Assembly: GCA_907163375.1 (NCBI GenBank)
Contig: CAJQUW010000468.1
Location: 62,001-126,000 of the forward strand
Direction of reading: 5' to 3'
Source of the DNA: Prostheceraeus crozeri
Lineage: Eukaryota; Platyhelminthes; Polycladida; Euryleptidae
Length of the DNA: 64,000 bases
Positions 35,781 to 61,900 of this stretch are shown here, one piece after another; positions within the stretch are counted from its first letter, which is position 1, and every line of letters begins with the position of its first letter. Below the pieces are notes generated by a model, which worked only from the letters and a program-made list of their open reading frames with translations, ran no database searches and was not told the DNA's origin. The position numbers and the translations under genes are program-made.

Positions 35781-37420
35781 TCGAGTGGAAGCAGTGCTCG
35801 GATGTGAAAACGAAGGCCAGATTTGGATTCAGCGTGAGATTCTGCATCTGTATGGTGAATTTGAAAGCAATCGAAGAGAAAAATTTTCGTCACCCCCGGC
35901 ACCGACCTTCCAACTTTGCTTCTAGTGGACGGATTTTGTCGTGCAATAGCTCGTTTGAAAGCTAGGAGTGAGACAAATTCACTGAAAGAAACGGCTTGTT
36001 CATATCTGCCTTCGTTTAGATGTGAGACGCCATTTCAGATTTTGGGAGATTGGCGAAAAACGACAGAGTTAGAATTTTGGACGTTTTTGGCTCTAGCGTC
36101 AAAACGAAGCATCGGATGGGAAAACGGATTTCAGATTTGGAATCAGCATGAAATTCTCTATCAACATGGTGAGTTTCAAGTCAATCGGAGAGAAAAAATT
36201 TTCAACATTTTTCGAAAAAACGACAGAGTTAGAATTTGGGACGTTTTGGGCTGTAGCGTCAAAACGAAGCATCGGATGGGAAAACGGATTTCAGATTCGG
36301 ATTCAGCGTGAAATTCTGCATCTGTATGGTGAATTTGAAAGCAATCGGAGAGAAAAATTTTCGCTGACGTCCCCCCCGGCACCGACCTTCCAACTTTGCT
36401 TCCAGTGGACGGATTTTGTCGTGCAATAGCTCGTTTGAAAGCTAAGAGTGAGACAAATTCACTGAAAGAAACGGCTTGTTCATATCTGTCTTCGTTTAGA
36501 TGTGAGACGCCATTTAAGATTTTGGGAGATTGTCGAAAAAACGACAGAGTTAGAATTTTGGACGTTTTGGGCTCTAGCGTCAAAACGAAGCATCGGATGG
36601 GAAAACGGATTTCAGATTTGGAATCAGCATGAAATTCTCTATCAACATGGTGAGTTTCAAGTCAATCGGAGAGAAAAAATTTTCAACATTTTTCGAAAAA
36701 CCGACAGAGTTAGAATTTTTGCGATGGCTGTGGGCTGTAGAGCCAAAACGAAGCATCGGATGGGAAAACGGAGGCCAGATTCGGATTCAGCGTGAAATTC
36801 TGCATCTGTATGGTGAATTTGAAAGCAATCGAAGAGAAAAAATTTTCGCTGACGTCCCCCCCCCCGGCACCGACCTTCCAACCTTGCTTCTAGTGGACGG
36901 ATTTTGTCGTGCAATAGCTCGTTTGAAAGCTAAGAGTGAGACAAATTCACTGAAAGAAAAGGCGTGTTCATATCTGTCTTCGTTTAGATGTGAGACGCCA
37001 TTTAAGATTTTGGGAGATTGGCGAAAAACGACAGAGTTAGAATTTTGGACGTTTTGGGCTCTAGCGTCAAAACGAAGCATCGGATGGGAAAACGGAGGCC
37101 AGATTCGGATTCAGCGTGAAATTCTGCATCTGTATGGTGAATTTGAAAGCAATCGGAGAGAAAAATTTTCGCTGACGTACCCCCCACTTCGGCACCGACC
37201 TTCCAACTTTGCTTCCAGTAGACTGATTTTGTCGTGCAATAGCTCGTTTAAAAGCTAAGAGTGAGGCTTATTTACTGAAAGAAACGGCTTGTTCATATCT
37301 GTCTTTGTTTAGATGTGAGACGCCATTTAAGAGTTTGGGAGATTGGCGAAAAACGACAGAGTTAGAATTTCCCAAGAAACAGCTCCAGCGGACTCGGATT
37401 GGTAAACGGAGGCCAGATTT
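35780..37420. repeat. Left inverted arm: about five diverged units of a roughly 315-bp tandem repeat
   Basis: Units recur with marker phrases such as GTGAGACAAATTCACTGAAAG, ACGACAGAGTTAGAATTTT and AAAACGAAGCATCGGATGGG. Two subtypes alternate: one with CATCTGTATGGTGAATTTG and one with TATCAACATGGTGAGTTTC. A unit with the variant GATGGCTGTGGGCTGTAGAG (about 36,723) matches the innermost right-arm unit near 56,075, which ties the two arms together. G/C-run length differences shift frames, so the arm ORFs (for example 36,629-37,258) are periodicity by-products. Confidence 0.9.
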
Positions 37421-37442: not shown

Positions 37443-37490
37443 CCAATGAGGATCATCATCCAATGAGAATCAAGCATTTCTATATAAATA
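37443..37490 (+). promoter_or_regulatory. Left early promoter: two CCAAT boxes and a TATA box
   Basis: CCAAT occurs at 37,443-37,447 and 37,460-37,464 (17 bp apart), followed by TATATAAATA at 37,481-37,490, about 100 bp before the ATG at 37,581. The right promoter (52,371-52,407, minus strand) has the same two CCAAT boxes with the same 17-bp spacing and a TATA box. Confidence 0.7.
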
Positions 37491-37580: not shown

Positions 37581-38355
37581 ATGGCAAGTCGCTACTTCCC
37601 TCCCTCTCCTCCCTTGAACGTAAACTTAATACAATCTTTTTCATTTTCAGGCATCTACTCCATCTGCTGCACTAGTAGGACAAAATGGCGGTCAAACGTT
37701 ACATGGTTCGCTACGATCAGATCATCTACAACTGAGGCCAGTGGAAGAAACAACCAAAGTACATAATCCTACACCGCTACAGGTCAAATTTAAACAAGTC
37801 TTGCGTTATGACGATCATAGCGTAGTACTCCAAACGGGAATGCTCCCTTCCACGGATGTCAAGATAATGCGCAATCAGTATGGGGACTACATACTGATCC
37901 CCGTGAGTCCGTACATTCGCCACCAACTTGATATTATTGAGGAGTACGTGACATTAAATATGGACATTCCTACTCCTCTTGCTCAAGAGTGGAAGGCGAG
38001 AGATGACAAGGATACTCCCTATAGAAAGATTTGGGATCGTAATCACATTTGCCTACCGGTATCACATTGGTGTACTTACTATAAGAAGGAGGGAGATCAA
38101 TCAATACGCATCAGATGTGATGAGCTCGGAGAAGGTACTTGGGATATCCTTTTCAAAGTGAATGGGCTATATTATGGTCGGCATAAGGATAATAAAACAG
38201 CCTCTCTCTCCATGCATATGGAATCCATCCTATATATTCCAAAACTACCCAACGTGGATGACATAATTGATCAAATCCTTAACAGCAGTGGTACGAAGCG
38301 CAAGTCGGAGAAGAATGCTGCCTCAAAACGCAAATCAAAGAAGGAGAATTACTAG
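37581..38355 (+). CDS. Polinton first rightward protein, spliced; unidentified, basic C-terminus
   Basis: The open frame 37,651-38,355 lacks an in-frame ATG near its start. It is best joined to the ATG at 37,581-37,583 by removing a 67-nt intron (37,584-37,650), giving a protein of about 236 residues that begins MASTPSAALVG. The middle contains IRHQLDIIEEYV and a beta-rich stretch GTWDILFKVNGLYYG; the last 30 residues are Lys/Arg/Ser-rich (KRKSEKNAASKRKSKK), like a nuclear-localisation or nucleic-acid-binding tail. Position next to the terminal repeat and shared leader with the polymerase suggest an early, replication-linked role, perhaps single-strand DNA binding, but no family is recognised. 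Confidence 0.6.
37584..37650 (+). other. 67-nt intron directly after the start codon, GC-AG type
   Basis: The sequence after ATG is GCAAGT, a known non-canonical donor; the intron ends CTTTTTCATTTTCAG. It aligns ungapped over all 67 nt with the GT-AG intron at 52,107-52,173 (45 identities by hand count), including CTCCCT, AACGT, TAATA and ATCTT blocks. An alternative 31-nt intron (GTAAAC at 37,620 to the same acceptor) also restores the frame, but it is very short for an animal intron and lacks the parallel. Confidence 0.6.
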
Positions 38356-39968: not shown

Positions 39969-40319
39969 ATGGCGAAACGTAAAAGTCAAAACTCTTCAAA
40001 GTTTTCTTCAGCCATGGAAGCTCTCCGACGAATGAAAGCAAATCAGCGATACAATGCTATACAACATGCTAACGATAAATTCATTCGTGAAATTATTTCT
40101 CATGTGAGGAAGTTGAGGACGAAGAAATTAGCACCAAAACAACGAAAGTTACTTAAGCGATATGCTACAAAATTGCGTTTCATCTCCAATCCTAAAGTCA
40201 CCCTTCAAAGAAAGAGGAAAACTCTAACACAAAAGGGTGGTTTCCTTTCAGCAATACTTCCGATGTTAGCTCCCGTCGTGGGTAACCTATTGGGTAATAT
40301 CTTTGGCTCTAGACGTTAA
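39969..40319 (+). CDS. Basic virion-core-like protein with hydrophobic C-terminus
   Basis: This 116-residue protein is Lys/Arg-rich for its first 90 residues (MAKRKSQNSSKF; RKLRTKKLAPKQRKLLKRY) and ends in a hydrophobic helix-like stretch GGFLSAILPMLAPVVGNLLG. A Gly-Gly-Phe step at KGGFL resembles processing sites used by adenain-type proteases, and the element encodes such a protease. A DNA-condensing or membrane-active minor virion component, comparable in layout to adenoviral core peptides, is plausible. The ATG context AAAATGG is good. Confidence 0.55.
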   Translation: MAKRKSQNSSKFSSAMEALRRMKANQRYNAIQHANDKFIREIISHVRKLRTKKLAPKQRKLLKRYATKLRFISNPKVTLQRKRKTLTQKGGFLSAILPMLAPVVGNLLGNIFGSRR

Positions 40320-40350: not shown

Positions 40351-40966
40351 ATGGATTTCAGACTTCAATGCGATAAAGTTCTGACTGTATCAAGTCCATC
40401 TCATGCAGGTAAAACTTTTCACGCTGAATTTATTGGATAAAAGAAGGGAGTTGTTTAAGGAACCTATCAATCGAGTGATTTGGTGTTATGGTATTTATCA
40501 ACCGTCGCTGTTTCAGGAAATGCAAAGTCGCAACTTTATTTGACATGAAGGAATTATTCCAGTGGATAAACTTCAGTCTAATGATGTTGTTGTATTGGAT
40601 GATTTATTGAAAGAAAGTAAGAATTCAAAAGATGTTACAGATATGTTCACTCGCGCAGCACATCATAAAAAGTGTTTTATCATCTATATCACACAAAATT
40701 TGTTTCCTGATGGAAAAGAAGCTCGTACACGAAACCTGAATACACACTATTATGCTATTTTCAAGAATCCGCGAGATAAAAGTCAATTTGAAATTTTAGC
40801 GCGACAAGTTGCACCCAGAGGATCAAAAGCCTTAATTGAAATTTTTCAAGCAGCTACTGAAAAACCATACGGTTACTTATTCATTGACTTTACGCAAGAG
40901 TGTCCGGAAGAATTTAGATTTCGAAGTGATATTTTGAAAACTCCCATGATTATCTACAAACTATGA
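40351..40966 (+). pseudogene. Packaging ATPase (FtsK/HerA, A32-like), broken
   Basis: The 5' frame (ATG 40,351 to TAA 40,438) encodes the Walker A region SSPSHAGKTFHAEF. The frame then shifts near 40,430 to RELFKEPINRVIWCYGIYQP, meets an in-frame TGA at 40,541-40,543, and continues from 40,544 through DVVVLDDLLKES (Walker B), CFIIYITQNLFP and LNTHYYAIFKNPRD to the end. This order (P-loop, hydrophobic-DD, Q-N before a conserved N) is that of the genome-packaging ATPases of Polintons and related viruses. The Walker A glycine-rich loop is atypical, with Ser in place of the first Gly. Two independent lesions make loss of function likely. Confidence 0.8.
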
Positions 40967-41656: not shown

Positions 41657-41657
41657 T

Positions 41658-41873
41658 ATGAAGCAGATGTGTTGCTTGCCATGTAATGAACCGCCAGAGG
41701 TGAATGTCGTTGTCACTTGCACTTGCTGCGCTAGCTCTCACAATGAAACCCCTATGCAATGTGAACACGATCGCAAAACCGCTAAAGCTAAATGCTGCAG
41801 TTGTTGTAAATGTAGAAAGGCAAGAAAACAAAAAGATGAGAAGGAGGAAAAAGAGTCAGTCGTCATCGACTGA
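41658..41873 (+). CDS. Small cysteine-rich ORF overlapping the integrase start
   Basis: 71 residues with about a dozen cysteines, many in C-C or C-x-C pairs (KQMCCLPCNEPP; CTCCASS; CCSCCKCRKARKQ), then a charged tail. It starts two bases after the preceding stop and overlaps the integrase ATG (41,836) in another frame. Spacing and composition argue for a real small protein, perhaps zinc-binding, but a chance ORF cannot be excluded. Confidence 0.4.
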   Translation: MKQMCCLPCNEPPEVNVVVTCTCCASSHNETPMQCEHDRKTAKAKCCSCCKCRKARKQKDEKEEKESVVID

Positions 41874-42567
41874 ACGTTTGAAGTCAATCTATTATGATGT
41901 AAAACATCCGGCAGGATTTGCATCTATCAAGAAATTATCAAAAGCGAGTGGTCTTCCACAATCACAAGTGAAACGATGGTTAAAGGGTCAGGCTACCTAT
42001 ACACTCCACAAACAAGTGAAAAAGAAGTACCGCACCCGCCATTATATTGTTCATGACATCGATGAACAGTGGCAAGCAGATTTGTGTGATGTTGCCTCCA
42101 TTTCAAAACATAACTCGGGTAATAATTTTATTTTAACCGTCATTGATATTTTCTCGCGTTATGCGTGGGCTCAACCTTTAAAAACTAAAGAAGGGAAAGG
42201 AGTAGCAAAAGCATTTCAAACATTTTTTCGAGGTCGCATTCCAAAAAGAATTCAGAGTGATCAAGGAAAAGAGTTTGAAAATCAGCATGTGAGAAGATTA
42301 TTTGAGAGGCATGACATTGAGTTGTTTAGTGTAAAGAGTGCTTATAAAGCTGCACTCGTTGAACGTTTTAATCGCACATTAAAAAATCGCTTGTGGCGAC
42401 ATTTTACTGCCAACTTGACACAAAATTGGACAAAGGTTCTACAAGATACACTCCATGCCTACAATCACTCTATCCATCGCTCTATTGGACTCAGACCAGT
42501 AGATGTAAATGCTGACAATGTAGATAAAGTGCGCGAATCATTCCAACGTAAACGCATCTTATTCTAA
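41836..42567 (+). CDS. Polinton integrase (retroviral-type, rve)
   Basis: From the ATG at 41,836 (243 residues; an earlier in-frame ATG lies at 41,704). The catalytic triad is D82 (WQADLCDV), D142 (RIQSDQGKEF) and E176 (LVERFNRTL), with 33 residues between the last two. The N-terminus has a helix-turn-helix-like region (IKKLSKASGLPQSQVKRWL). It inserts the element DNA by strand transfer. The protein stops soon after the catalytic core (RPVDVNADNVDKV); Polinton integrases usually carry a further C-terminal DNA-binding or chromo-like domain, which I do not find downstream, so it may be shortened. Otherwise open. Confidence 0.9.
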   Translation: MRRRKKSQSSSTERLKSIYYDVKHPAGFASIKKLSKASGLPQSQVKRWLKGQATYTLHKQVKKKYRTRHYIVHDIDEQWQADLCDVASISKHNSGNNFILTVIDIFSRYAWAQPLKTKEGKGVAKAFQTFFRGRIPKRIQSDQGKEFENQHVRRLFERHDIELFSVKSAYKAALVERFNRTLKNRLWRHFTANLTQNWTKVLQDTLHAYNHSIHRSIGLRPVDVNADNVDKVRESFQRKRILF

Positions 42568-42622: not shown

Positions 42623-43075
42623 ATGAATCAAACTGCCTCATTTTATTCACGACCCTCCTATGTAAGTGGTGGAGGACAAATTTACATCGGCGCTCGCCGC
42701 CAACGTGGAGGTAGCATACTTGGTGCGCTGAAATCTGTTGTAGCACCTCTCATATCCAATGTCGGAAGATCTTTAAAACGAAATGTTTTAAGTAATGCCG
42801 TTGGCTTTGCTGATGTCGCTAGTGATCTTTCCAGAGGTAGAAGTTTTAAGAGCAGTTTGTTGAATCGTGGGAAGGAACGCGGTTTAAAAACATTGAAGCA
42901 GACCTTTGCTGGTGTTACTCAAGGAAAGAAATCGCCTAAACGAATGAATAAAGGAAGAAGGAAACATCGCGGAGTTGGTAAGGTGCGATCTTCAGTCAAA
43001 AGGCATTCACGCAAACGTCGCAGAGGCTCTAATCATTCATCAGGCGCTAAACGACGACGCTGCCATAACTTCTAA
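42623..43075 (+). CDS. Minor virion protein with amphipathic helix and Arg/Lys tail
   Basis: 150 residues. After a Gly-rich N-terminus (SGGGQIYIGARRQRGG) follows an amphipathic segment (SILGALKSVVAPLISNVGRS), a central SDLSRGRSFKSSL, and a highly basic tail (KRHSRKRRRGSNHS). The RGG-S step could be a protease site, and the layout resembles adenoviral minor proteins that combine a membrane-active helix with a DNA-binding tail. This protein type is recurrent in Polintons just before the capsid gene. The precise homologue is not determined. Confidence 0.6.
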   Translation: MNQTASFYSRPSYVSGGGQIYIGARRQRGGSILGALKSVVAPLISNVGRSLKRNVLSNAVGFADVASDLSRGRSFKSSLLNRGKERGLKTLKQTFAGVTQGKKSPKRMNKGRRKHRGVGKVRSSVKRHSRKRRRGSNHSSGAKRRRCHNF

Positions 43076-43077
43076 TC

Positions 43078-44350
43078 ATGGAGTGTAAAACTTCCGTGTT
43101 TTGTTTGGTTGATCAACAAGCCATACAGACAGATATTCTTAGTTCAAGTATTGTAGATTATCATCCTCGAACAGCTGAGAATGCTGGCCCCATTGAATTT
43201 GTTATTCCTGGTGGTAGTGATGACTACATAGATTTGAGTTATGGTTGATTTGAGGTTTAGAATTCAGCAAGCAGATGGAACTGCTATTGACGATACACAT
43301 AAAGTTGGACTGAACAATTTACCATTGACTACATTACTTCGCGATGTTTCTCTAACGATTGGAGAGCAGCAGGTGGAAGGTGGCCAAAGCGATTATCCCT
43401 ATAAATCATATTTCAATCATGTATCACAGTTTCATCCAGCAGCACAAAAAAGTCATATGGAAGCCATGGGATGGTACAGAGATGAAGCAGGAAAATTTGA
43501 TGCTGAAACAAACAGTGGCTTTGTAAAGCGATCTGCTATGATTAAAGATAGTAAAGTATGTCAGCTATATGGTCCGCTGAATTTAGACTTCTTTAGACAG
43601 TCAAAGTTTTTACTCTGTAATACCAGCATGCGACTCAAGCTGACATTGAATAAGCCTGAATTTGCGCTGAATGCATTTGCTAAAGTTGACAATTTTAGAA
43701 TTCATGTGGAAGATATTGCACTTTACATTCGTCGAGTAGTACCGAATCCAAGTGTCATTAGAGGGCATGCTGAAGGTCTTAACCGCCAAAATGCCATTTA
43801 CCCCGTTCAGCATACAAAGCTTCACACCTTTACAATTCCAAAAGATCAAAAGAGTTTCATGAAAGATAACCTCTTTCCATCGGAAGCACCGAAGCTCCTC
43901 ATGGTGGCAATGGTTGAAAATGATGCATTTAATGGTAATATAAAGAAGAATCCTTTCAATTTTAAACACAATCAGTTAAGTGAAATTGCTTTACGTGTAA
44001 ATGGTGTGAGTCATCCTGGTCCACCCTACAAACCAGATTTTGCTGCGGATCAATTTATGCGCAGTTATGTTGATTTTATGGATGTCTTTGGCTTTTACAA
44101 TACGGATGACACCAACGGACTCACTATGAAAGAGTTTAAGAGTGGATATACTATTTATGCATTTGATTTGACTGCTGACAGCGATATTAGTGCACCCTAT
44201 CGTCAAGCGAACGTGCCTCATAATATTCGTTTGGATTTGACGTTCAAAAGAACACTACCTGAGACGATCAATGTATTAATTTATGCAGTCTTCGATTCAA
44301 ATATTGAAATTACAAAGTATCGTGACGTGATTCTTCAGTATAATCGTTAA
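43078..44350 (+). pseudogene. Capsid protein of the F54H12.2-like Polinton family, likely major capsid, one frameshift
   Basis: The ATG at 43,078 opens a 56-residue frame (VDYHPRTAENAGPIEFVIPG) that ends at TGA 43,246. The rest (43,241-44,350) is in the next frame, from VDLRFRIQQADGT onward. Markers of the family are QSDYPYKSYFNHVS, NPFNFKHNQLSEIALRVNG and the C-terminal ETINVLIYAVFDSNIEI. The protein would be about 425 residues. I read it as a jelly-roll capsid protein, probably the hexon-like major one, from its size, beta-rich pattern and place next to the protease; which Polinton capsid class it is remains uncertain. A single-base indel near 43,240 separates the frames. Confidence 0.6.
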
Positions 44351-44811
44351 TGAGTTGGTTGACTGCTGACGATATTAAAACTAAAGTACACCGTAATGCA
44401 GACGAAGTGACGTTGAAAGCTTTCGATAATGTCTATTCGCTCGATACCTTACCACCTGCAGTAAATCACTATCCCATCTTTATTGTACTAAACACTCATT
44501 CGCAGAATTTAGGCGGTGAGCATTGGAAAGCGATCTTTATTGGAGAAGACCGACGTGGTGAACTATTTGACTCTCGTGCTCAACCTCCAAATATACCAAC
44601 ACAGCAGTGGTTGAGAAAACATACGCGTCAATATCAGCGAAATGAACGCATACTACAACATCCACTTTCATCAACGTGTGGTGCTTTTGTACTGTACTTC
44701 ATCTTAAAACGTTTACATGTATCTCGATTTGTATCTGTTATTCAAAACTTTTCATGTAATCCATCCTCTAATGAAAAAATGATTTGTAAGTTCTATCATG
44801 ATTTGAAATAA
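44350..44811 (+). CDS. Adenain-like cysteine protease
   Basis: 153 residues, starting at an ATG that overlaps the previous stop (TAATG). Catalytic residues can be placed: H58 in GGEHWKAIF, D74 in LFDSRAQ, Q103 in ILQHPLSS and C110 in SSTCGAFVLYF, the H-D/E-Q-C order of the Ulp1/adenain (C5) fold. In adenoviruses and Polintons this enzyme matures virion proteins, here probably the GG-containing proteins at 39,969 and 42,623. The length is close to half-size adenains. Intact. The stop codon TAA is part of the polyadenylation signal AATAAA at 44,807-44,812. Confidence 0.85.
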   Translation: MSWLTADDIKTKVHRNADEVTLKAFDNVYSLDTLPPAVNHYPIFIVLNTHSQNLGGEHWKAIFIGEDRRGELFDSRAQPPNIPTQQWLRKHTRQYQRNERILQHPLSSTCGAFVLYFILKRLHVSRFVSVIQNFSCNPSSNEKMICKFYHDLK

Positions 44812-44842
44812 AAACATCATGTTGGAAAAATTGTTTTTTATT
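44807..44842. terminator. Convergent polyadenylation signals embedding both stop codons
   Basis: AATAAA at 44,807-44,812 serves the plus strand and contains the protease TAA. The complement TTTATT at 44,837-44,842 gives a minus-strand AATAAA that contains the TAA of the TBP-like gene (44,838-44,840). The two transcription units therefore end within about 36 bp. Confidence 0.65.
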
Positions 44843-45383
44843 TTACAATCGTCTGGGTACGTACATACTCGATGAGATAGTCTAGGATCACATTTGCTTG
44901 TACATGAGATTTTAGTCCAGTAATGATCACTTTACTATTATGAAAGATTGCCACATGCACAGGTAACCAACAACTAATGAGAGCTGCAGGAAAAAGTTCG
45001 GGTTCATAACACAAATTGTAACTGCTGGTACGAATCTTCAAAAATGATACACTTTCACTCAATTGAGTAGAGATCACCATATTGTCCACAGTCAGATTCG
45101 ACATCACACACCTCTCCCTCTTCCATATCCGACGTAGTAGTCTTTGTAGCTCTAAGCGCATTGACTGCGCCGATGAATGAGAAAGGGCGCCGAGAATCTG
45201 TACAGTCCCATTTGAGAAGAGTTGAAGATTCCGTGAATTGTTCATCTTCACCACTAACATTTGAGGACGGCCCGGGTAATACTTGCTGTTTGGAAGGTGT
45301 TGGTGTAATGTTGTGAGATCGATTTTGGTGTAGAGTCTGAAGCGACGGAGAATGTTGACGATGGTGTAGCGATAGCGCTTCAT
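44838..45383 (-). CDS. TATA-binding-protein-like protein (two TBP repeats)
   Basis: From the minus-strand ATG at 45,383 the frame encodes 181 residues, the size of a TBP core. Two halves show the TBP repeat pattern: first IVNILRRFRLYTKIDL, PNSKYYPGRPQMLVVK and LQLFSNGTVQILGALS; second MSNLTVDNMVIS, YEPELFPAALISCW and VAIFHNSKVIITGLKS. The YEPELFP motif and the F-x-SGK-x-x-x-TG strand (here HNSKVIITG) are hallmarks of TBP repeat 2; two DNA-intercalating Phe positions of each half are partly kept. It probably binds promoter DNA to direct element transcription. It overlaps the upstream PC4-like frame by about 330 bp. Intact, and conspicuous because TBP is not a standard Polinton gene. Confidence 0.65.
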   Translation of the reverse strand: MKRYRYTIVNILRRFRLYTKIDLTTLHQHLPNSKYYPGRPQMLVVKMNNSRNLQLFSNGTVQILGALSHSSAQSMRLELQRLLRRIWKRERCVMSNLTVDNMVISTQLSESVSFLKIRTSSYNLCYEPELFPAALISCWLPVHVAIFHNSKVIITGLKSHVQANVILDYLIEYVRTQTIVK

Positions 45384-45705
45384 GATGAAAAAATGAGTAA
45401 ATTGAGCGATGTACCTTCCTTTTATACTTTTCCCAACTACCTTGATGAAATGTGAAGTTAGTATGGAGTTGGGAATGATAGAGTTGAATTCGCCGTTTGT
45501 TGACGCACAACCAGATGCGATTTCCAATACGTGAATGTCTTTTCATATAGAAGTATTTCAAATCCTTCATGATATGATGTAGAGATTGAAAATGACGATA
45601 AGATAAAGCAAACTCTCTTCTCACATTTCCAGTTGAATCTTTGAAATAGACGTTTCGATCATGATCCGTTTCAATACGTTGTAGGGAATCTAATTTCCAA
45701 CTCAT
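45055..45705 (-). CDS. PC4-like/transcription-cofactor-like protein with acidic tail, copy 1
   Basis: 216 residues from the minus-strand ATG at 45,705. The N-terminal 105 residues form a domain (DRNVYFKDSTGNVRREFAL, FQSLHHIMKDLKYFY, IWLCVNKRRIQLYH, SWEKYKRKVHRSIYSFF). A beta-rich start followed by a long helix is compatible with the p15/PC4 single-strand-binding fold, though I rate this as a suggestion. The C-terminal part overlaps the TBP-like gene in another frame; it is Ser/Thr-rich and ends acidic (DMEEGEVCDVESD), which would suit an activation tail. A tandem paralogue lies upstream (45,728-46,083). Confidence 0.45.
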   Translation of the reverse strand: MSWKLDSLQRIETDHDRNVYFKDSTGNVRREFALSYRHFQSLHHIMKDLKYFYMKRHSRIGNRIWLCVNKRRIQLYHSQLHTNFTFHQGSWEKYKRKVHRSIYSFFHHEALSLHHRQHSPSLQTLHQNRSHNITPTPSKQQVLPGPSSNVSGEDEQFTESSTLLKWDCTDSRRPFSFIGAVNALRATKTTTSDMEEGEVCDVESDCGQYGDLYSIE

Positions 45706-45727
45706 GGTGCGTGGTAGTCATGTCTGA

Positions 45728-46083
45728 TTAAGATTTGCATAGTAGGGCGATGAACTCACGACGAATAAATGTCATGATGGAGCGATGTATGTATCTTCTA
45801 TACTTCTCCCAATTGTATTTGCGAAATGAGAAACAGTTTGCGGAATGAGAATGGCAGATTTGAATTTCATTTCTGTAATGTTGAAGCCAAACTTGATCAC
45901 CCAAGGAGATGAATCTTAATGTTTCAAAATATTCTAAAACTCTCATGATATCATGAGGTTGACAAATTGTCGCCATGTTAATGTAATACCTCTTGATGCA
46001 TGACCATGAGAATTTTTGAAATGTACGTTTCCATCACGATCAACTCTGATATATTGTAGAGAGTCCAAAATCCAAGTCTTCAT
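45728..46083 (-). pseudogene. PC4-like paralogue, copy 2, frameshifted
   Basis: The ATG at 46,083 opens MKTWILDSLQYIRVDRDGNV, parallel to MSWKLDSLQRIETDHDRNV of copy 1. The frame closes at a TGA near 45,950, and the second half of the domain (IMRVLEYFE, WLQHYRNEIQICHSH, NWEKYRRYIHRSIMTFI) is in another frame to 45,728. It has only the domain and no acidic tail. A tandem duplication followed by decay or a single indel near 45,960 explains it. It is divergent from, and only 35 bp from, the structural gene at 46,119. Confidence 0.6.
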
Positions 46084-46118
46084 GATGTTATGCAAAGCCG
46101 CAGATCAGCAATATCAAA

Positions 46119-47516
46119 ATGTCGTTTTATCATATTTTGCTTAGCAATGCGGCCGCAAATAGATTTTCTAGTAATCGAGCCGCACTCTTTTCTACTCCCA
46201 TTGATCATGCACAACAGCTAAATGGAAATTGGGAAGTGGGTGTCACTCAACTTGTTCATAGCAACTGTGTCTATACTTTTGATCATGAGGTGATGACTAT
46301 TAATATGAGACGTACAGCTGCTTACCAATGTGAAAAGGGGTGCCGAGTATACATTCCACAGTGGCCGAAGAAAGATCTCTTATCATGTAAAAAGTTTATA
46401 TATGATTTCTTGAATAAAGCGTGTAAACAGATTGTCCAATTTACTCCGCACAATGATGATCATAATTATGTACATCATGTAGTTGAGAAAGATTGGATTG
46501 TTGGTTTAAGTACAAGTTTAAGAAATGATTTAGGTTACCTCGCTAGCGCCTTAACAGGCTATGATAATTATAACGTTAATTACCATATAAGTGGTCATAA
46601 ACAGTTAATATATCGAGAGGAAGCTTATTATGTAGATCTTATTCCAAAAAATGAGAAGACGTTGGTGAAGAAGATTGTGATTAAGCCAAGAAAGACAAAC
46701 ATGACTCCTGAAACATTATTGAAGAAATTTAATTATCTCCTTCGAGTTGATGGTAAACAAGTGGCAACATTGACTTACATCAAATCATGTAATCATATTG
46801 CAATAAGTAAATTAAATGATGATGATCTAGTATTAGTTTGTTCAAGAGATTTTCATCAGTTCTTACGACATCGTTCTGCAGCTGTTCATGGAAAATTTGA
46901 TGTGGAACATTTACCATGTGAAAGGTCAAATCAATTTGATACAGAATGGACCGTATCTTTATACAGAAAGTGTGTAGAGCCTTTCGGTGGTATCTTACAT
47001 GAAACAAGAGTGTTGATGCCTCGCATTATTACTTCGGTTAAATTGGTTGTAGATTATTTAAATGAAGTGATTAATGAGCAACATATTTCATTTTCTGAAA
47101 AAGAAGGTGTTTTGTCTCTCACTATAAGTGGAAAAGGTATTGAACTAATTATGGATAAAACTCTAATGGACATTTTGGGTTTTGATCAAAATATCTTTAA
47201 AAGTGGTACTGTAACCAAAGCTAGCGCAGACATGTCACTATCGCGTCGTACTAACTATTTTCAGATATATTCCAATATTGGTGAAGATGTACGTGTGGGA
47301 GATGTTGAAGCTCCATTGCTAGCAATGATACCATACCAGCCAAAAAGCTGCAGTATTTTATCTGAGCATACTTTCAAGAAAGTGCATTATACAAAGCTGA
47401 AATCAAACTACATCCCACAAATTGATATTGCAATTTATGACGATGCTGGTGCGTTGATTCCTTTTCATAAAGATGCTGTGACAAGTATCACACTCCATTT
47501 CCGAATGAAGAGTTAA
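46119..47516 (+). CDS. Large Polinton structural-module protein, copy 1
   Basis: 465 residues, intact. The N-terminus has SFYHILLSNAAANRFSSN and LNGNWEVGVTQLVHSNCVY, a pattern (LPSN-like start, then L-x-G-x-W-E-V-G) I recognise as a recurrent Polinton protein. The C-terminus is YFQIYSNIGEDVRVGDVEAP and ends IPFHKDAVTSITLHFRMKS. It is mainly beta-strand in appearance, suiting a capsid or capsid-associated protein. Which numbered Polinton gene it corresponds to is not certain. It lies in a plus-strand pair with a shortened paralogue immediately downstream. Confidence 0.65.
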   Translation: MSFYHILLSNAAANRFSSNRAALFSTPIDHAQQLNGNWEVGVTQLVHSNCVYTFDHEVMTINMRRTAAYQCEKGCRVYIPQWPKKDLLSCKKFIYDFLNKACKQIVQFTPHNDDHNYVHHVVEKDWIVGLSTSLRNDLGYLASALTGYDNYNVNYHISGHKQLIYREEAYYVDLIPKNEKTLVKKIVIKPRKTNMTPETLLKKFNYLLRVDGKQVATLTYIKSCNHIAISKLNDDDLVLVCSRDFHQFLRHRSAAVHGKFDVEHLPCERSNQFDTEWTVSLYRKCVEPFGGILHETRVLMPRIITSVKLVVDYLNEVINEQHISFSEKEGVLSLTISGKGIELIMDKTLMDILGFDQNIFKSGTVTKASADMSLSRRTNYFQIYSNIGEDVRVGDVEAPLLAMIPYQPKSCSILSEHTFKKVHYTKLKSNYIPQIDIAIYDDAGALIPFHKDAVTSITLHFRMKS

Positions 47517-47555
47517 TGCAAACGTATGCTAATATATTTTTCCAATGTGAATAAT

Positions 47556-48517
47556 ATGGAAAGTGAAAATAAGGACTCGTTTCTAATCTACTTGCCCAGT
47601 AATGCTTCTATGAATCAATTTCCCAAAAACAAACCATCAGACTATCGAGTAGAATTAAACCGAGTAGAATTATTGAGTTAGTAAAACGATGGAATGAGAC
47701 TGTGGGTAAGAAGTATGGAGAGAAAATTATGGCGGACAAAAATAAGTTGGTCATTCAGAAATATAATGACAAACTTACAGTTTATTTCTCTCCAACCTTG
47801 CGTCATTTTGTAAGACATTATACACCTATTATTGGAAGCGGTCTGGTGTATGCTTCTCATGAATATCACACTACAGCTGATTCAGTTAATGATGAATGGT
47901 GGGTGGACATCTATGGTGATCGCATCAAGAAAATTTACCAGTCTTATGAAGAATCTAAAGTTGCTATCAATATAATGCCGCGTCTATATCATACAGTTGA
48001 AAGCTTCATTCATGTAGTAAATCCTTATATACAACAGAAGTTGAAGCATGTGATGAAAAGTAAATATGATGTAAAGATACACCACATTTCGTTTTCAATT
48101 GAAAATCAACGCGTTGTTCTGAAACTGGGTGATGACATTCAATGTCAATTGAGTAAAAATTTGAAAAAACTTTTTGGTTTTTCAATGCTACAAACTGTGT
48201 TTACTGCTGCGCATACGATTGGTATAGAAACACCAATGACACTTGATAAACATGAACAGCACCTTTACATTCAAAGTGATTTGATTCTACCTATTTCTGT
48301 TGGTGAGAAAAAAGAATACATTTTACGTGATTTCATTCATGATAGAGACGCTTCATATGGAATAGTCGAGAAGATGTTTGAATCTATTTTCTATCATCCC
48401 GTCGTCAAACAAACTATACCCTCTATTGCTATCAAAATTACCAATGGTTTACAAGAGTGCATCCATGTGAAAGATACTAAATCCCTCGTAACTTTAGTGT
48501 CTCGGAAAACAAAGTGA
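47556..48517 (+). pseudogene. Second copy of the large structural-module protein, internally deleted and split
   Basis: The ATG at 47,556 opens 41 residues (DSFLIYLPSNASMNQFPKN, the family N-terminus) that end at TAG 47,679. The remainder continues in another frame from about 47,675 (ELVKRWNETVGKKYGEK) to 48,517, with IPSIAIKITNGLQECIH at the end matching the IPQIDIAIYDDAGALIP region of copy 1. The WEVG block and roughly 130 residues present in copy 1 are absent at the junction. AATAAA follows at about 48,541. Confidence 0.6.
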
Positions 48518-51500
48518 AGTCATTGTGATATGTTTATTGAAATAAAAATGTGTATGAAAAAGTCTTTTCACAGATATAGGGGGAATGGGCTGACTGTAGG
48601 CATATATTCACAAGGAAGAAACGATCTCATGCGATACATAAAACAGCAATGTTTATCTACAGAAATCAACATGAAAATACTAAGTTAAGGATGATTATGC
48701 TAAGACGTCTCCTGAATGTGGCAGTGTGAGTTTTATTCTTTTGGGTGGAGGTATGTTTGTGTCAGGATGTCCATGTGGAAGAGATATGTTATGTTCTAAC
48801 CAGCACCTCTTATCCTCCCATACTGAAAGCGCCCGTTTCCTAAAAGTATGAGTTTTGATCTCATGCGACTTAGATTTTAAGATTGTCATATTGACAAACG
48901 TTATATTTTTATTTCTATCGGCTTCCCTGAAATTTTTATGTTTCATGTTAGAGACCAATGATCTTGATATGCCTTTAGCGCGCTTAATACTATCGTCTCT
49001 ATCCTTTAATTTCATACTGTACATTTTTGGGCGGAGGAGAATCATTTCATCTATTTCCTTCCCTGCTGTCTCATCCTTAAAGCAGCCAAGTTTTGCCTTA
49101 TTTTTGATGGAGTAGAGTGGGTGATCAGTAGGATAATTTGATGTATCAAAATATCTTTCTAAAGATTTTCCTACTTCATTGAAATTTAAATCTTTTTGAG
49201 TGGTAATACCTAAGAAGAAACTATCTGTATCGCCACCCAACAAACGAACCTCTTTTACGAGAGGACATGGTTTTAGTATTTTATAAAAGAGTTGGTACAT
49301 TTCAAGCTTAGAGTAATCTACGGAAGATCTACGGTTTTATGTTTAATATTATTTGGATAGATTAGATCTATCTCAAAATAATATCCCCAATCACCTTCAT
49401 CTGGAATTTCTAGTATGTTAGAAGGGTTGGAGAGATGCTGAATTTCACTATCATCTAACCAGCTAAACTCAGAATGAGGGAGTGGTTTGGATAGTGAACT
49501 ACCATATAAATTATTTTGGTCAGAATACTTAAGATGAGTCTGATCATTGCCTACTAATTTTGATTTTAACCTATGTCTATTTACAAATGTGAGACCACCG
49601 CGAATTCCTCGCTCAAATATGTTATACATCTCTGGATCTTGTAAGAGATGAATGGTCTCACCAGTCATTTTAAAAGCAGACTTAAATGACATGGCTGGCA
49701 GACTGACAAAGTGGACGGGATCTAACTTATCTTCTTCTAATGCCACTCGTCGAAACTCCTGAAATATATCAGCAGCAAAAATACATCTAACTTAAGATAG
49801 GCAATCATATATTCGCCAAATGTATGGCAGTCAAATTTTATCCATGCATCTTGTGCATGATCATAATCTTCGGTCTTACATTCTGCGCCGGTCAAATCAT
49901 TTTTAAATTTATCTATGGGCGGAAGAGAAGTCTCGCCGAGTTTACTAATCGCATCAAAATATGCATATGGAAGGACTCCTTTCCGTGTGATGACTTCATC
50001 GGTTAGATTTGGATATTGTTTCTTAAGATTTTGTGTTAGTGGAGGAGACTTTAGATTTTGTACGAGAGAGGCCAGTGATGCAGTCACAAATTGGTAGGAA
50101 TCTAAAAATTTTATATCAAAATAGACCGTCTTATTTTCTTTAGTTTTATCAACAGGCACTTTTGCTGTCATGGCCATAAACTTCTCTCTCGTTTGTGCTA
50201 TTACATCAAGCTTCCACTCTTTCATTTGACCTAAACCTCCTTTTATTATCATATGGATGTCGTAGCCCTTGAAATTATGGAAAATGACGGGTAATGTACG
50301 CCGTTTCATCCTAAGTGAAAAATTGCATTTTGAACATAGTGCGTTTCTAAATTTACCAGTGATGTGATCATGTTCGCGCACTTTCTTAATCTTATCATCA
50401 TCAAATGTTTTCCTACATTTGAGGCAAACGTTGCAACTATCAAATTTTGCTTGATCATCTGCTGTCATATGCAATGATCTGCGATAGAGTTCACCATCAT
50501 ACTTTTGTTGAAATTTTACAGCCTGTTCGAGGAATTGTAGGAATTGGTAAATACAATCCTCACCTTGCCAGACGTGCATTTTATTTTTTCTATTTTGGAA
50601 ATGGTCATGCCATACTTCATAGCACGATATGGCTGCTGGCTTGTGGATGATATCATCGATATAGCATTCGATGTCAGCATAGATGACACGAAGAGGACTT
50701 AGCTCATCGCCATTCTCTCTATATGAAAACTCCTTATCTTTGGGCATGCGCTCCATTTGTAGTTTACCTCGCTTACACCATTCGTAATGAGTTTCAAACT
50801 TGTTTTTACTCCTAAAGTTCCTAATGCATCTGTCACAGTAATAAATCTCTGATGAGCTAGAATTTCTTAAGTGGTGGTATAAGCGAGAAATTTTGGGAAT
50901 ACCGCAGTAGTGCCATTCCTCACTATCATCCTGTCTTACTAATAAAAGGTTGACAACGTGGTCATAACAACTCGAACGCGAGTTGTAGCGGACACCCTTC
51001 AATCCCTTTTCCCAAACATGGAGAACTATTTTGATGTTGTTCAATTTTTCAAATTTTTCTATATCTTTAATTTTCATATCTTCACTATTGCAGTCATCAA
51101 ACTTCAATTCATTCCCCCACTGTTGATACTTACTCTTACGGTATCGGCTATTCTGTACATCATTATAGTGGAGAATGGAGAGGACGGCATACTTAAAACA
51201 GTGCGATTCGCAATCTACAGAAATGACTGCTGTTTTATTTTTTAAATTTTTCGGAAGTTTAAAGGAGCCTCGTCCAGAGTAGTTCTCTAATAAAGTGATT
51301 TTAATCATGGCGGTCTCAATACCATCAAAAACGAGATCTATCACGCTCGTTAAAGTTATCTATGTTTAATTTTAACCCTTGGATATGAAAATTTATCCAA
51401 GACTCGCAGTCTACAACTTCGGTTGCAGGAGAGGAAGGTATGTGAAACTCCAACCTCTCTACTATTTGACCAGTATGGTGGTCGATTTTTGCATATTTTA

Positions 51501-51986
51501 TTTTGAGATAGATGAGCGCCTTCATTCTAAAATTGGCTAAATTGTTGAAGAGCGCACCAATCAAAGATGAATTTTGATGAAACCATTCTTCAAAGTCAGT
51601 AATGGTTTCTGAGGATTCCATCTGGTAGTTCCTCACTAAATTATTTATCGACACTTCAGAGAGTCGTATAGAGGAGGTGCTGTTAGTATAACTATCGTCA
51701 CTGTGTGCATGTCGAAGTCTATGTGAAGATAGTTCAAAATGTGACTCAAAAGACTGAATGCATAAATCGCAAGAAAAGGAGACATCGTTAACAGAATCAT
51801 CCCCACCTTCGGAGATTGATGCTGACTTAGGTCTACAAACACCTCGCTTGATGTGTCGGACGAGATCACGCTTCCTCGTGAAGATGTGTCCACAGTCAGC
51901 ACATTCCCGATCGTTGGATTCCCGCGACAATGTTGACATGGAGTCGCTGTTGTTATCTGACTCGCTCGAGATGGGACTGGTATCAC

Positions 51987-52045
51987 CTGAAAGAGAAATC
52001 ATTCTTTCATCTCTGTTAAAGTCTCAGTGTATTGTTACAACCTAC
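51987..52045 (-). other. Second intron (59 nt) of the DNA polymerase gene
   Basis: Donor GTAGGT and acceptor TTTCTCTTTCAG on the minus strand. Removing it joins LLSQ to GDTSPISS in phase (one base left from the 61-nt exon). Confidence 0.65.
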
Positions 52046-52106
52046 CTTGACTCAACAACTCTAAACTTTCCTCGAGAAGGGAGGGCGTTGGTGATGAAGT
52101 TGATGC

Positions 52107-52173
52107 CTGAAATTGAGGAAGATGCTATTAGCCACACGTTTGAGGGAGATGAGTGAAGAAATTTTCAACTTAC
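52107..52173 (-). other. First intron (67 nt) of the DNA polymerase gene, directly after the ATG
   Basis: Donor GTAAGT immediately follows ATG (52,174-52,176) and the acceptor is CTCAATTTCAG. The next exon begins GCATCAACTTCATC, giving Met-Ala-Ser-Thr-Ser. It is the counterpart of the 67-nt intron at 37,584-37,650. Confidence 0.7.
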
Positions 52174-52215
52174 CATTTGAACGAAATTATGTTTAAGGTT
52201 GATTCTTCAACAAGA

Positions 52216-52331: not shown

Positions 52332-52370
52332 AGAGTGAAATGACACGAATGTCACTTTGCATATATACTT

Positions 52371-55995: not shown

Positions 55996-58900
55996 ACCAT
56001 GTAGAATTTGACGCTGAATCCGAATCTGGCCTCCGTTTTCCCATCCGATGCTTCGTTTTGGCTCTACAGCCCACAGCCATCGCAAAAATTCTTTCGTTTT
56101 TTCGAAAAAATTTCGTGAAGAAAAATTTTTTCTCTCCGATTGACTTGAAACTCACCATGTTGATAGAGAATTTCATGCTGATTCCAAATCTGAAATCCGT
56201 TTTCCCATCCGATGCTTCGTTTTGACGCTAGAGCCCAAAACGTCCAAAATTCTAACTCTGTCGTTTTTCGCCAATCTCCCAAAATCTGAAATGGCGTCTC
56301 ACATCTAAACGAAGGCAGATATGAACAAGCCGTTTCTTTCAGTGAATTTGTCTCACTCTTAGCTTTCAAACGAGCTATTGCACGACAAAATCCGTCCACT
56401 AGAAGCAAAGTTGGAAGGTCGGTGCCGGGGGGTGACGAAAATTTTTCTCTCCGATTGCTTTCAAATTCACCATACAGATGCAGAATTTCACGCTGAATCC
56501 GAATCTGGCCTCCGTTTTCCCATCCGATGCTTCGTTTTATAGCTAAAGCCCAAAACGTCCAAAATTCTAACTCTGTCGTTTTTCGCCAATCTCCCAAAAT
56601 CTGAAATGGCGTCTCACATCTAAACGAAGGCAGATATGAACAAGCCGTTTCTTTCAGTGAATTTGTCTCACTCTTAGCTTTCAAACAAGCTATTGCACGA
56701 CAAAATCCGTCCACTAGAAGCAAAGTTGGAAGGTCGGTGCCGGGGGAGACGAAAATTTTTCCCTCCGATTGCTTACAAATTCACCATACAGATGCAGAAT
56801 TTCACGCTGAATCCGAATCTGAAATCCGTTTTCCCATCCGATGCTTCGTTTTGACGCTACAGCCCAAAACGTCCAAAATTCTAACTCTGTCGTTTTTCGC
56901 CAATCTCCCAAAATCTGAAATGGCGTCTCACATCTAAACGAAGGCAGATATGAACAAGCCGTTTCTTTCAGTGAATTTGTCTCACTCTTAGCTTTCAAAC
57001 GAGCTATTGCACGACAAAATCCGTCCACTAGAAGCAAAGTTGGAAGGTCGGTGCCGGGGGGTGACGAAAATTTTTCTCTCCGATTGCTTTCAAATTCACC
57101 ATACAGATGCAGAATTTCACGCTGAATCTGAATCTGAAATCCGTTTTCCCATCCGATGCTTCGTTTTGACGCTACAGCCCAAAACGTCCAAAATTCTAAC
57201 TCTGTCGTTTTTCGCCAATCTCCCAAAATCTGAAATGGCGTCTCACATCTAAACGAAGGCAGATATGAACAAGCCGTTTCTTTCAGTGAATTTGTCTCAC
57301 TCTTAGCTTTCAAACGAGCTATTGCACGACAAAATCCGTCCACTAGAAGCAAAGTTGGAAGGTCGGTGCCGGGGGAGACGAAAATTTTTCCCTCCGATTG
57401 CTTACAAATTCACCATACAGATGCAGAATTTCACGCTGAATCCGAATCTGAAATCCGTTTTCCCATCCGATGCTTCGTTTTGACGCTACAGCCCAAAACG
57501 TCCAAAATTCTAACTCTGTCGTTTTTCGCCAATCTCCCAAAATCTGAAATGGCGTCTCACATCTAAACGAAGGCAGATATGAACAAGCCGTTTCTTTCAG
57601 TGAATTTGTCTCACTCTTAGCTTTCAAACGAGCTATTGCACGACAAAATCCGTCCACTAGAAGCAAAGTTGGAAGGTCGGTGCCGGGGGGTGACGAAAAT
57701 TTTTCTCTCCGATTGCTTTCAAATTCACCATACAGATGCAGAATTTCACGCTGAATCTGAATCTGAAATCCGTTTTCCCATCCGATGCTTCGTTTTGACG
57801 CTACAGCCCAAAACGTCCAAAATTCTAACTCTGTCGTTTTTCGCCAATCTCCCAAAATCTGAAATGGCGTCTCACATCTAAACGAAGGCAGATATGAACA
57901 AGCCGTTTCTTTCAGTGAATTTGTCTCACTCTTAGCTTTCAAACGAGCTATTGCACGACAAAATCCGTCCACTAGAAGCAAAGTTGGAAGGTCGGTGCCG
58001 GGGGGGACGAAAATTTTTCCCTCCGATTGCTTACAAATTCACCATACAGATGCAGAATTTCACGCTGAATCCGAATCTGAAATCCGTTTTCCCATCCGAT
58101 GCTTCGTTTTGACGCTACAGCCCAAAACGTCCAAAATTCTAACTCTGTCGTTTTTCGCCAATCTCCCAAAATCTGAAATGGCGTCTCACATCTAAACGAA
58201 GGCAGATATGAACAAGCCGTTTCTTTCAGTGAATTTGTCTCACTCTTAGCTTTCAAACGAGCTATTGCACGACAAAATCCGTCCACTAGAAGCAAAGTTG
58301 GAAGGTCGGTGCCGGGGGGTGACGAAAATTTTTCTCTCCGATTGCTTTCAAATTCACCATACAGATGCAGAATTTCACGCTGATTCCAAATCTGAAATCC
58401 GTTTTCCCATCCGATGCTTCGTTTTGACGCTACAGCCCAAAACGTCCAAAATTCTAACTCTGTCGTTTTTCGCCAATCTCCCAAAATCTGAAATGGCGTC
58501 TCACATCTAAACGAAGGCAGATATGAACAAGCCGTTTCTTTCAGTGAATTTGTCTCACTCTTAGCTTTCAAACGAGCTATTGCACGACAAAATCCGTCCA
58601 CTAGAAGCAAAGTTGGAAGGTCGGTGCCGGGGGGGACGAAAATTTTTCCCTCCGATTGCTTACAAATTCACCATACAGATGCAGAATTTCACGCTGAATC
58701 CGAATCTGAAATCCGTTTTCCCATCCGATGCTTCGTTTTGACGCTACAGCCCAAAACGTCCAAAATTCTAACTCTGTCGTTTTTCGCCAATCTCCCAAAA
58801 TCTGAAATGGCGTCTCACATCTAAACGAAGGCAGATATGAACAAGCCGTTTCTTTCAGTGAATTTGTCTCACTCTTAGCTTTCAAACGAGCTATTGCACG

Positions 58901-61900
58901 ACAAAATCCGTCCACTAGAAGCAAAGTTGGAAGGTCGGTGCCGGGGGGTGACGAAAATTTTTCCCTCCGATTGCTTTCAAATTCACCATACAGATGCAGA
59001 ATTTCACGCTGAATCTGAATCTGAAATCCGTTTTCCCATCCGATGCTTCGTTTTGACGCTACAGCCCAAAACGTCCAAAATTCTAACTCTGTCGTTTTTC
59101 GCCAATCTCCCAAAATCTGAAATGGCGTCTCACATCTAAACGAAGGCAGATATGAACAAGCCGTTTCTTTCAGTGAATTTGTCTCACTCTTAGCTTTCAA
59201 ACGAGCTATTGCACGACAAAATCCGTCCACTAGAAGCAAAGTTGGAAGGTCGGTGCCGGGGGGTGACGAAAATTTTTCTCTCCGATTGCTTTCAAATTCA
59301 CCATACAGATGCAGAATTTCACGCTGAATCTGAATCTGAAATCCGTTTTCCCATCCGATGCTTCGTTTTGACGCTACAGCCCAAAACGTCCAAAATTCTA
59401 ACTCTGTCGTTTTTCGCCAATCTCCCAAAATCTGAAATGGCGTCTCACATCTAAACGAAGGCAGATATGAACAAGCCGTTTCTTTCAGTGAATTTGTCTC
59501 ACTCTTAGCTTTCAAACGAGCTATTGCACGACAAAATCCGTCCACTAGAAGCAAAGTTGGAAGGTCGGTGCCGGGGGGGACGAAAATTTTTCCCTCCGAT
59601 TGCTTACAAATTCACCATACAGATGCAGAATTTCACGCTGAATCCGAATCTGAAATCCGTTTTCCCATCCGATGCTTCGTTTTGACGCTACAGCCCAAAA
59701 CGTCCAAAATTCTAACTCTGTCGTTTTTCGCCAATCTCCCAAAATCTGAAATGGCGTCTCACATCTAAACGAAGGCAGATATGAACAAGCCGTTTCTTTC
59801 AGTGAATTTGTCTCACTCTTAGCTTTCAAACGAGCTATTGCACGACAAAATCCGTCCACTAGAAGCAAAGTTGGAAGGTCGGTGCCGGGGGGTGACGAAA
59901 ATTTTTCTCTCCGATTGCTTTCAAATTCACCATACAGATGCAGAATTTCACGCTGAATCTGAATCTGAAATCCGTTTTCCCATCCGATGCTTCGTTTTGA
60001 CGCTACAGCCCAAAACGTCCAAAATTCTAACTCTGTCGTTTTTCGCCAATCTCCCAAAATCTGAAATGGCGTCTCACATCTAAACGAAGGCAGATATGAA
60101 CAAGCCGTTTCTTTCAGTGAATTTGTCTCACTCTTAGCTTTCAAACGAGCTATTGCACGACAAAATCCGTCCACTAGAAGCAAAGTTGGAAGGTCGGTGC
60201 CGGGGGGTGACGAAAATTTTTCCCTCCGATTGCTTACAAATTCACCATACAGATGCAGAATTTCACGCTGAATCTGAATCTGAAATCCGTTTTCCCATCC
60301 GATGCTTCGTTTTGACGCTACAGCCCAAAACGTCCAAAATTCTAACTCTGTCGTTTTTCGCCAATCTCCCAAAATCTGAAATGGCGTCTCACATCTAAAC
60401 GAAGGCAGATATGAACAAGCCGTTTCTTTCAGTGAATTTGTCTCACTCTTAGCTTTCAAACGAGCTATTGCACGACAAAATCCGTCCACTAGAAGCAAAG
60501 TTGGAAGGTCGGTGCCGGGGGGTGACGAAAATTTTTCTCTCCGATTGCTTTCAAATTCACCATACAGATGCAGAATTTCACGCTGAATCTGAATCTGAAA
60601 TCCGTTTTCCCATCCGATGCTTCGTTTTGACGCTACAGCCCAAAACGTCCAAAATTCTAACTCTGTCGTTTTTCGCCAATCTCCCAAAATCTGAAATGGC
60701 GTCTCACATCTAAACGAAGGCAGATATGAACAAGCCGTTTCTTTCAGTGAATTTGTCTCACTCTTAGCTTTCAAACGAGCTATTGCACGACAAAATCCGT
60801 CCACTAGAAGCAAAGTTGGAAGGTCGGTGCCGGGGGGTGACGAAAATTTTTCTCTCCGATTGCTTTCAAATTCACCATACAGATGCAGAATTTCACGCTG
60901 AATCTGAATCTGAAATCCGTTTTCCCATCCGATGCTTCGTTTTGACGCTACAGCCCAAAACGTCCAAAATTCTAACTCTGTCGTTTTTCGCCAATCTCCC
61001 AAAATCTGAAATGGCGTCTCACATCTAAACGAAGGCAGATATGAACAAGCCGTTTCTTTCAGTGAATTTGTCTCACTCTTAGCTTTCAAACGAGCTATTG
61101 CACGACAAAATCCGTCCACTAGAAGCAAAGTTGGAAGGTCGGTGCCGGGGGGTGACGAAAATTTTTCTCTCCGATTGCTTTCAAATTCACCATACAGATG
61201 CAGAATTTCACGCTGAATCTGAATCTGAAATCCGTTTTCCCATCCGATGCTTCGTTTTGACGCTACAGCCCAAAACGTCCAAAATTCTAACTCTGTCGTT
61301 TTTCGCCAATCTCCCAAAATCTGAAATGGCGTCTCACATCTAAACGAAGGCAGATATGAACAAGCCGTTTCTTTCAGTGAATTTGTCTCACTCTTAGCTT
61401 TCAAACGAGCTATTGCACGACAAAATCCGTCCACTAGAAGCAAAGTTGGAAGGTCGGTGCCGGGGGGTGACGAAAATTTTTCTCTCCGATTGCTTTCAAA
61501 TTCACCATACAGATGCAGAATTTCACGCTGAATCTGAATCTGAAATCCGTTTTCCCATCCGATGCTTCGTTTTGACGCTACAGCCCAAAACGTCCAAAAT
61601 TCTAACTCTGTCGTTTTTCGCCAATCTCCCAAAATCTGAAATGGCGTCTCACATCTAAACGAAGGCAGATATGAACAAGCCGTTTCTTTCAGTGAATTTG
61701 TCTCACTCTTAGCTTTCAAACGAGCTATTGCACGACAAAATCCGTCCACTAGAAGCAAAGTTGGAAGGTCGGTGCCGGGGGGTGACGAAAATTTTTCCCT
61801 CCGATTGCTTTCAAATTCACCATACAGATGCAGAATTTCACGCTGAATCTGAATCTGAAATCCGTTTTCCCATCCGATGCTTCGTTTTGACGCTACAGCC

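Follow-up and report, generated by a model that had tools for sequence, protein, structure and literature searches.

A Polinton-borne TATA-binding protein with an altered N-terminal lobe and a candidate promoter box

Introduction

In the window, that is, the whole stretch of 64,000 nucleotides of the Prostheceraeus crozeri contig CAJQUW010000468.1 analysed here, a gene resembling that of the TATA-binding protein (TBP) lies among the genes of a Polinton-type element. The locus raises the following question: is this protein a TBP proper that belongs to the element, and, if so, which promoters would it read? For a small virus-like element, a core-promoter factor of its own would constitute an unusually compact takeover of transcription.

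Results

The element and its gene complement

The first-pass annotation had placed the TBP-like gene in a Polinton, and this placement is supported by the integrase match (Table 1) and by ATPase and DNA polymerase B (polB) pieces matching L001 (WPAE01000167.1, 1-3584), a Polinton-like contig. The ATPase piece is 40% identical over 118 residues to an L001 ORF that, judging by its motif, we take to be an ATPase, and it has no Pfam match above the cut-off. In polB, the piece 48695-49300 shows 42% identity over 77 residues to a polB-like piece of L001, the piece 49318-49746 matches DNA_pol_B_2 at 0.045 only, and the frames presumably contain the exonuclease and DTDS motifs, as read by eye. The C48 match of the protease stays below the cut-off, and for the probable capsid gene no convincing match was found in Pfam or the PDB.

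The nearest relative of the probable capsid protein, P0053, is 98% identical to it over the full length (the best of 383 relatives), and no relatives were found in IMG/VR; our capsid alignment A2 comprises the window sequence and 32 of the best 120 of these 383 proteins. L001 holds the sole capsid relative in GTDB contigs, at 30% identity, and represents a different Polinton-like type. This 3.6-kb contig, from an Ignavibacteria MAG, carries pieces of capsid, protease, ATPase, and polB genes (partly recognized by eye); no TBP-like ORF was seen by eye in its ORF list, and the motif ATGCAAA (see below) occurs in it 0 times vs 1.3 expected by chance. Another capsid relative, P0054 (86% identity), is labelled by NCBI as a protein of a Pseudomonadota MAG (AAGK05_12265), and is probably a contaminant from a eukaryote or from an element of one.

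The inverted arms of the element are about 310-404 nt long, with 92-99% identity (24 of the 25 longest among 106 pairs), and are built of tandem units. The right end of the element lies beyond the window, and hence the 6-bp target duplication is unreadable there. Spurious ORFs of up to 1157 aa arise in the right array, as the length of its 315-bp unit is a multiple of three. An ORF at 34931-35551 looks LINE-endonuclease-like by eye, without Pfam support; its apparent interruption near 35549 may mark where the element inserted on the left.

By eye, polB (52176-52107, minus strand) and gene 1 (37581-37650, plus strand) seem to share a leader-exon design: a first exon consisting of ATG alone, an immediate splice donor, a 67-nt intron, and then GCATCNACT; the intron of gene 1 is of the GC-AG type. 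ORF b has two relatives and a poor structural model (pLDDT 49); a guess by eye that it encodes a PC4-like coactivator was dropped, as there was no match in Pfam or the PDB either. The tandem of ORFs a and b appears to be present in one relative, P0173.

The TBP frame is unbroken, whereas the capsid, ATPase, and polB genes and ORF a have broken frames or stops. Because the capsid, ATPase, and polB frames are broken, this copy of the element may be inactive; the breaks may stem from decay or from assembly error.

Table 1. Features of the element, in the order of window positions.
Feature	Position	Strand	Remarks
Left terminal repeat (part)	35798..37370	+	Built of tandem units shared with the right array
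TATATAAATA box of gene 1	37481..37490	+	
Gene 1	37581..38355	+	Apparently spliced directly after ATG
ATGCAAA	39923..39929	+	46 nt upstream of ATG 39969
Small basic ORF	39969..40319	+	Putatively virion-type, by composition
ATGCAAA	40322..40328	+	29 nt upstream of ATPase ATG
Packaging-ATPase gene	40351..40966	+	Frame broken; C-terminal ORF 40562-40966
rve integrase	41704..42567	+	PF00665, 3.1e-10
ATGCAAA	42585..42591	+	38 nt upstream of ATG 42623
Basic ORF	42623..43075	+	Putatively virion-type, by composition and position
Probable major capsid gene (putative identity)	43078..44350	+	Frame change near 43235; 383 relatives
Ulp1/adenain-like cysteine protease ORF	44350..44811	+	Weak match: C48 E=0.012, C5 E=0.052, both below cut-off; catalytic motif by eye
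TBP-like gene	44838..45383	-	Intact, 181 aa
ORF b (small)	45364..45705	-	Just upstream of and overlapping TBP gene; frame open to 45055
TATA box TATAAAAG of TBP gene	45419..45426	-	First T 43 nt upstream of ATG; overlaps coding end of ORF b
ORF a (small)	45730..46083	-	Seeming paralogue in tandem with ORF b, judged by eye; internal stops
ATGCAAA	45734..45740	-	35 nt upstream of ORF b
ATGCAAA	46090..46096	+	29 nt upstream of penton-like ATG
Penton-like ORF	46119..47516	+	465 aa; assigned by position only
ATGCAAA	47516..47522	+	40 nt upstream of ATG 47556
ORF(s) 3' of penton-like ORF	47556..48517	+	Apparently more than one frame
polB gene	48695..52176	-	Several frames; first exon apparently ATG alone
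TATATATGCAAA with polB TATA (52360)	52356..52367	-	Contained ATGCAAA starts 186 nt upstream of polB ATG
Right array of 315-bp unit	56123..64000	-	Inverted relative to the left one; reaches window end

A TBP core of a distinct family

The ORF encodes a TBP core that is complete, with both repeats. It had been annotated from the sequence as a minus-strand TBP of 181 residues, the size of a TBP core, with two tandem halves, and the Pfam profile scan bears this out, matching PF00352 at 75.2 bits (gathering cut-off 22.9) in two stretches that correspond to the two TBP repeats. In structural alignments with cellular TBP cores (M. jannaschii 2z8u, yeast, and human), the protein shows the two-fold saddle at 19-26% identity. 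Thus, both the profile search and the structural comparison proposed with the annotation recovered a TBP.

We collected 51 related proteins, each with a TBP domain and at most 78% identical to the window protein; the membership of the most distant one, P0052, is doubtful. No relatives were found in IMG/VR (with P0052 as the query likewise), in GTDB contigs, or among phage records, and the plasmid search yielded three haloarchaeal TBPs only. The viral TBPs for comparison came from 12 IMG/VR loci (L002-L013), nine of which entered the signature table and six the tree: the table omits L003 and L009, which duplicate or nearly duplicate L002 and L008, as well as L010, whose frame stopped after 98 aa, and the tree additionally omits L005, L007, and L012.

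In the tree of 33 rows, comprising 21 of the 51 family rows, five cellular and six viral TBPs, and P0052, a branch supported at 100/99 sets the 21 family rows on a side of their own, outside the five cellular TBPs, and their stem measures about two substitutions per site. The six viral TBPs do not group with the family; P0052 joins it on a long branch, and its placement may be wrong. The phylogeny suggested at first pass, run against cellular and viral TBPs, hence sets the family apart. With this long supported stem, the protein is not a copy taken recently from the cellular TBPs sampled, and the family shows long-term constraint. The best explanation is that the ORF is an element-encoded TBP of a distinct family. 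A comparison of TBP and capsid relatives on contigs of equal size, made with the best 120 of the 383 capsid matches, yielded one pair (P0008 and P0165, 7106 nt; chance 0.11), and we do not use it as proof of linkage.

DNA-contact and TFIIB-contact residues

Signature residues were counted in 52 rows, i.e. the window protein and all 51 relatives; the doubtful P0052 was kept in every count and is behind some of the exceptions. In the alignment to canonical TBPs, repeat 1 retains Asn10 and Phe56 (the latter in 52 rows) and is changed at Pro40 (49 rows), Gln54 (50), Gln62 (52), and Leu64 (45). Repeat 2 retains Asn101 (51), Val103, Phe131 (51), Phe147 (52), and Thr155 (52). The invariant columns include F56, G59, Q62, G65, E129, P132, F147, T155, and G156.

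The comparison table included 13 TBPs, four cellular and nine viral (the human core was absent from it and was used in the tree only). Position 40 is Phe in 12 of the 13 and the position of Leu64 is Thr in 11; Gln is absent from positions 54 and 62 in all 13. By our mapping, Pro40 aligns with human Phe193 (numbering as in the accessible text of PMC3142196). Three of the four intercalating phenylalanines are therefore kept (F56, F131, and F147), and the fourth is P40. The yeast residues matching the altered repeat-1 contact positions presumably touch the minor groove. Because other accepted TBPs have three such phenylalanines (PMC5825884, accessible part), the three-Phe state weakens only the case for canonical DNA bending; in the same part of that paper, such TBPs are discussed as binders of TATA variants such as TGTAA. 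With one intercalating Phe lost and two Gln gained at usually hydrophobic contacts throughout the family, the element TBP is probably no plain TATA reader. The best reading of the alignments is a half-reprogrammed TBP, in which the N-terminal lobe is rewritten and the C-terminal lobe is canonical in its DNA contacts.

The TFIIB-contact glutamates C.L3.2 and C.L3.4 (positions as given in the available text of PMC7221094, mapped by alignment) are E127 (51 of 52) and E129 (52 of 52). That text describes the TFIIB-contact positions as variable among viral TBPs, with conservation of about 40% at C.L3.2. Since all nine viral TBPs of our table also keep both glutamates, their retention is less distinctive than this source alone suggests; our sample favors kept glutamates, as the viral TBPs were fetched by a scan using the pattern YEPE[QL]FP. 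No TFIIB domain was recognized in the 22 element ORFs scanned; one might still lie in a broken or spliced frame outside these 22. TFIIA, Mot1, and TAF1 contact a basic patch of the N-lobe, of which positions 77, 81, and 85 (our mapping) are not conserved and vary across the family.

Promoter elements

Promoter-placed TATA boxes were observed at three genes, namely gene 1, the TBP gene, and polB (at 37481, 45419, and 52360, respectively). The window as a whole contains 41 matches to the consensus TATAWAWR vs 28.8 +/- 5.9 expected, and eight of the 41 lie within 37400-52500. The first-pass statement that the TATA promoters are well formed thus applies to these three genes and is to be narrowed for the rest of the element, where six other starts carry ATGCAAA instead.

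In nine of the 16 listed relatives with N-terminal extensions (P0003, P0010, P0014, P0015, P0020, P0026, P0031, P0033, and P0034), x-I-K, as TATAAA would encode, is situated 14 codons upstream of the ATG (13 in P0014), and the upstream frame of P0001 likewise shows x-I-K. The extensions are a biased sample for a TATA footprint, and, because the TBP gene overlaps ORF b, the apparent TATA conservation may partly reflect ORF b coding; these sequences are only suggestive of a conserved footprint.

ATGCAAA is located 29-46 nt upstream of six of the 16 listed starts, a distance comparable to that of canonical TATA boxes, and four of these six sites read TATGCAAA. The box was found in one element, after surveying many 7-mers, on our own list of 16 starts. 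In permutations, the top 7-mer count reached six in one of 5000 random window sets, and ATGCAAA itself did so in none of the 5000. Among the 7-mers of the same composition (n = 210), 189 score zero, 20 score one, and ATGCAAA alone scores six. The reverse motif is absent from the upstream windows, and the downstream control also gave zero. The other ten starts, including those of the probable capsid, protease, and integrase genes, have no ATGCAAA. Ten sites lie within 37400-52500: six at starts, one beside the polB TATA, and three elsewhere. In the whole window, neither ATGCAAA (18 vs 24 expected) nor TATGCAAA (7 vs 4.7 expected; seven was reached in 18 of 100 shuffles) is enriched. It is plausible, on the evidence of this one element, that TATGCAAA is a late-promoter box of the element TBP.

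Discussion

Proposed mode of action

The observations as a whole are probably best explained by an element-encoded, half-reprogrammed TBP that would recruit host TFIIB and RNA polymerase II to the element promoters, with ATGCAAA/TATGCAAA as its plausible altered target; we consider this reading rather likely, on sequence grounds. The host machinery would produce the TBP early, using the canonical TATA promoter of its gene. It would then bind element promoters with the C-lobe on the 5' TAT half and the N-lobe on the altered centre and the 3' half, the Gln-bearing N-lobe tolerating or reading the G-C centre of TATGCAAA, and the C-lobe would dock host TFIIB, so that host RNA polymerase II is recruited. 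The box upstream of the virion-type genes would thus mediate an early-to-late switch. The earlier suggestion that an element with its own TBP could select its own TATA promoters becomes more specific in this form: the N-lobe is altered family-wide (Phe lost, two Gln), and we infer the match between the protein and the box.

A more far-reaching version remains tentative, with the balance of probability against it. It would make the element a member of a Polinton lineage with a one-protein early/late switch, where polB, gene 1, and the TBP gene rely on host-type TATA boxes, and TATGCAAA, placed before virion-type genes, is read by the TBP docking host TFIIB and RNA polymerase II.

Alternative explanations

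For the box, the chief competing explanation is a POU-domain factor of the host: the ATGCAAA sites would be octamer sites driving the virion-type genes, and the TBP would read ordinary TATA, unrelated to them. We regard this as a serious possibility, short of an even chance. ATGCAAA is an octamer core, and the C. elegans octamer ATTTGCAT is bound by CEH-6, as described in the accessible part of PMC2841177; the canonical C-lobe contacts of the element TBP would also agree with reading of ordinary TATA. The core ATGCAAAT, sought in either orientation, is present in one orientation only, and the six placed sites keep that orientation at 29-46 nt from the ATG, with the reverse motif absent from the same windows, which argues against this rival. 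Octamers often function in both orientations.

The protein could also act as a decoy: its binding to host TFIIB or to TATA DNA would lead to no productive initiation, and host transcription would be dampened. The nearly invariant TFIIB-contact glutamates and the unconserved regulator-contacted patch of the N-lobe would fit a decoy, but the DNA-contact residues are mostly conserved across the family, and the element contains a non-random promoter-like box; we find this role unlikely.

Still less credible is a passenger, i.e. a TBP or TBP-related gene of the host that this one element copy acquired recently, by capture or insertion. TBPs are universal in hosts, and the gene context is known from one window only; however, the 21 family rows form one clade on a long stem outside the five sampled cellular TBPs, and the signature is present in nearly all 52 rows. 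That the TBP fold serves replication or packaging, e.g. by marking the terminal repeats, instead of transcription is similarly improbable: divergent TBPs can bind DNA unusually, the Giardia TBP preferring single-stranded DNA (PMC12209930, accessible text), but the TFIIB-docking glutamates have no evident use outside transcription, and the gene is located among virion-type genes.

The preferred reading, that of a half-reprogrammed TBP acting on element promoters, is directly testable owing to the paired protein signature and promoter box. If true, it would provide a natural TBP with rewritten minor-groove specificity.

Comparison with known systems

With its integrase, its candidate polB, ATPase, Ulp1-like protease, and capsid-type genes, and its probable inverted terminal repeats, the element resembles Polintons/Mavericks and adintoviruses. 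Some adintoviruses encode zinc-finger transcriptional regulators, according to the available text of PMC11071296. TATA or TBP is not mentioned in the main texts, as available, of PMC11071296, PMC11071308, PMC10120064, PMC4028283, PMC8097293, and PMC3671162, which deal with Polintons, Mavericks, and adintoviruses; this is mostly open literature, and an earlier mention elsewhere is possible. In the available text of PMC12220804, the matches to "TATA" are an author's name in the reference list.

Compared with the cellular TBP core (PF00352), the element TBP has Pro for the N-lobe intercalating Phe, Gln at two contacts, and Leu for Thr. The viral TBPs from IMG/VR are likewise virus-encoded, and the nine tabulated ones share both TFIIB glutamates with it, but they lack Gln at 54 and 62, and the six in the tree fall outside its family. 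Moreover, viral TBPs are nearly always accompanied by a viral TFIIB (PMC7221094, available text), whereas none was recognized in the 22 scanned ORFs of the element. B263R of African swine fever virus is described as having three, not four, intercalating phenylalanines (PMC5825884, accessible part), as the element TBP does.

The closest functional parallel, by analogy, may be ORF24 of KSHV, a viral mimic of TBP whose DNA interface is polar and which serves late genes from TATTWAA (PMC12529657, accessible text): the logic would be the same if our reading of the box is right. As described there, ORF24 differs in having extra N- and C-terminal domains, in needing all four phenylalanines and the viral ORF34, and in binding RNA polymerase II directly, whereas the element TBP is a bare TBP core.
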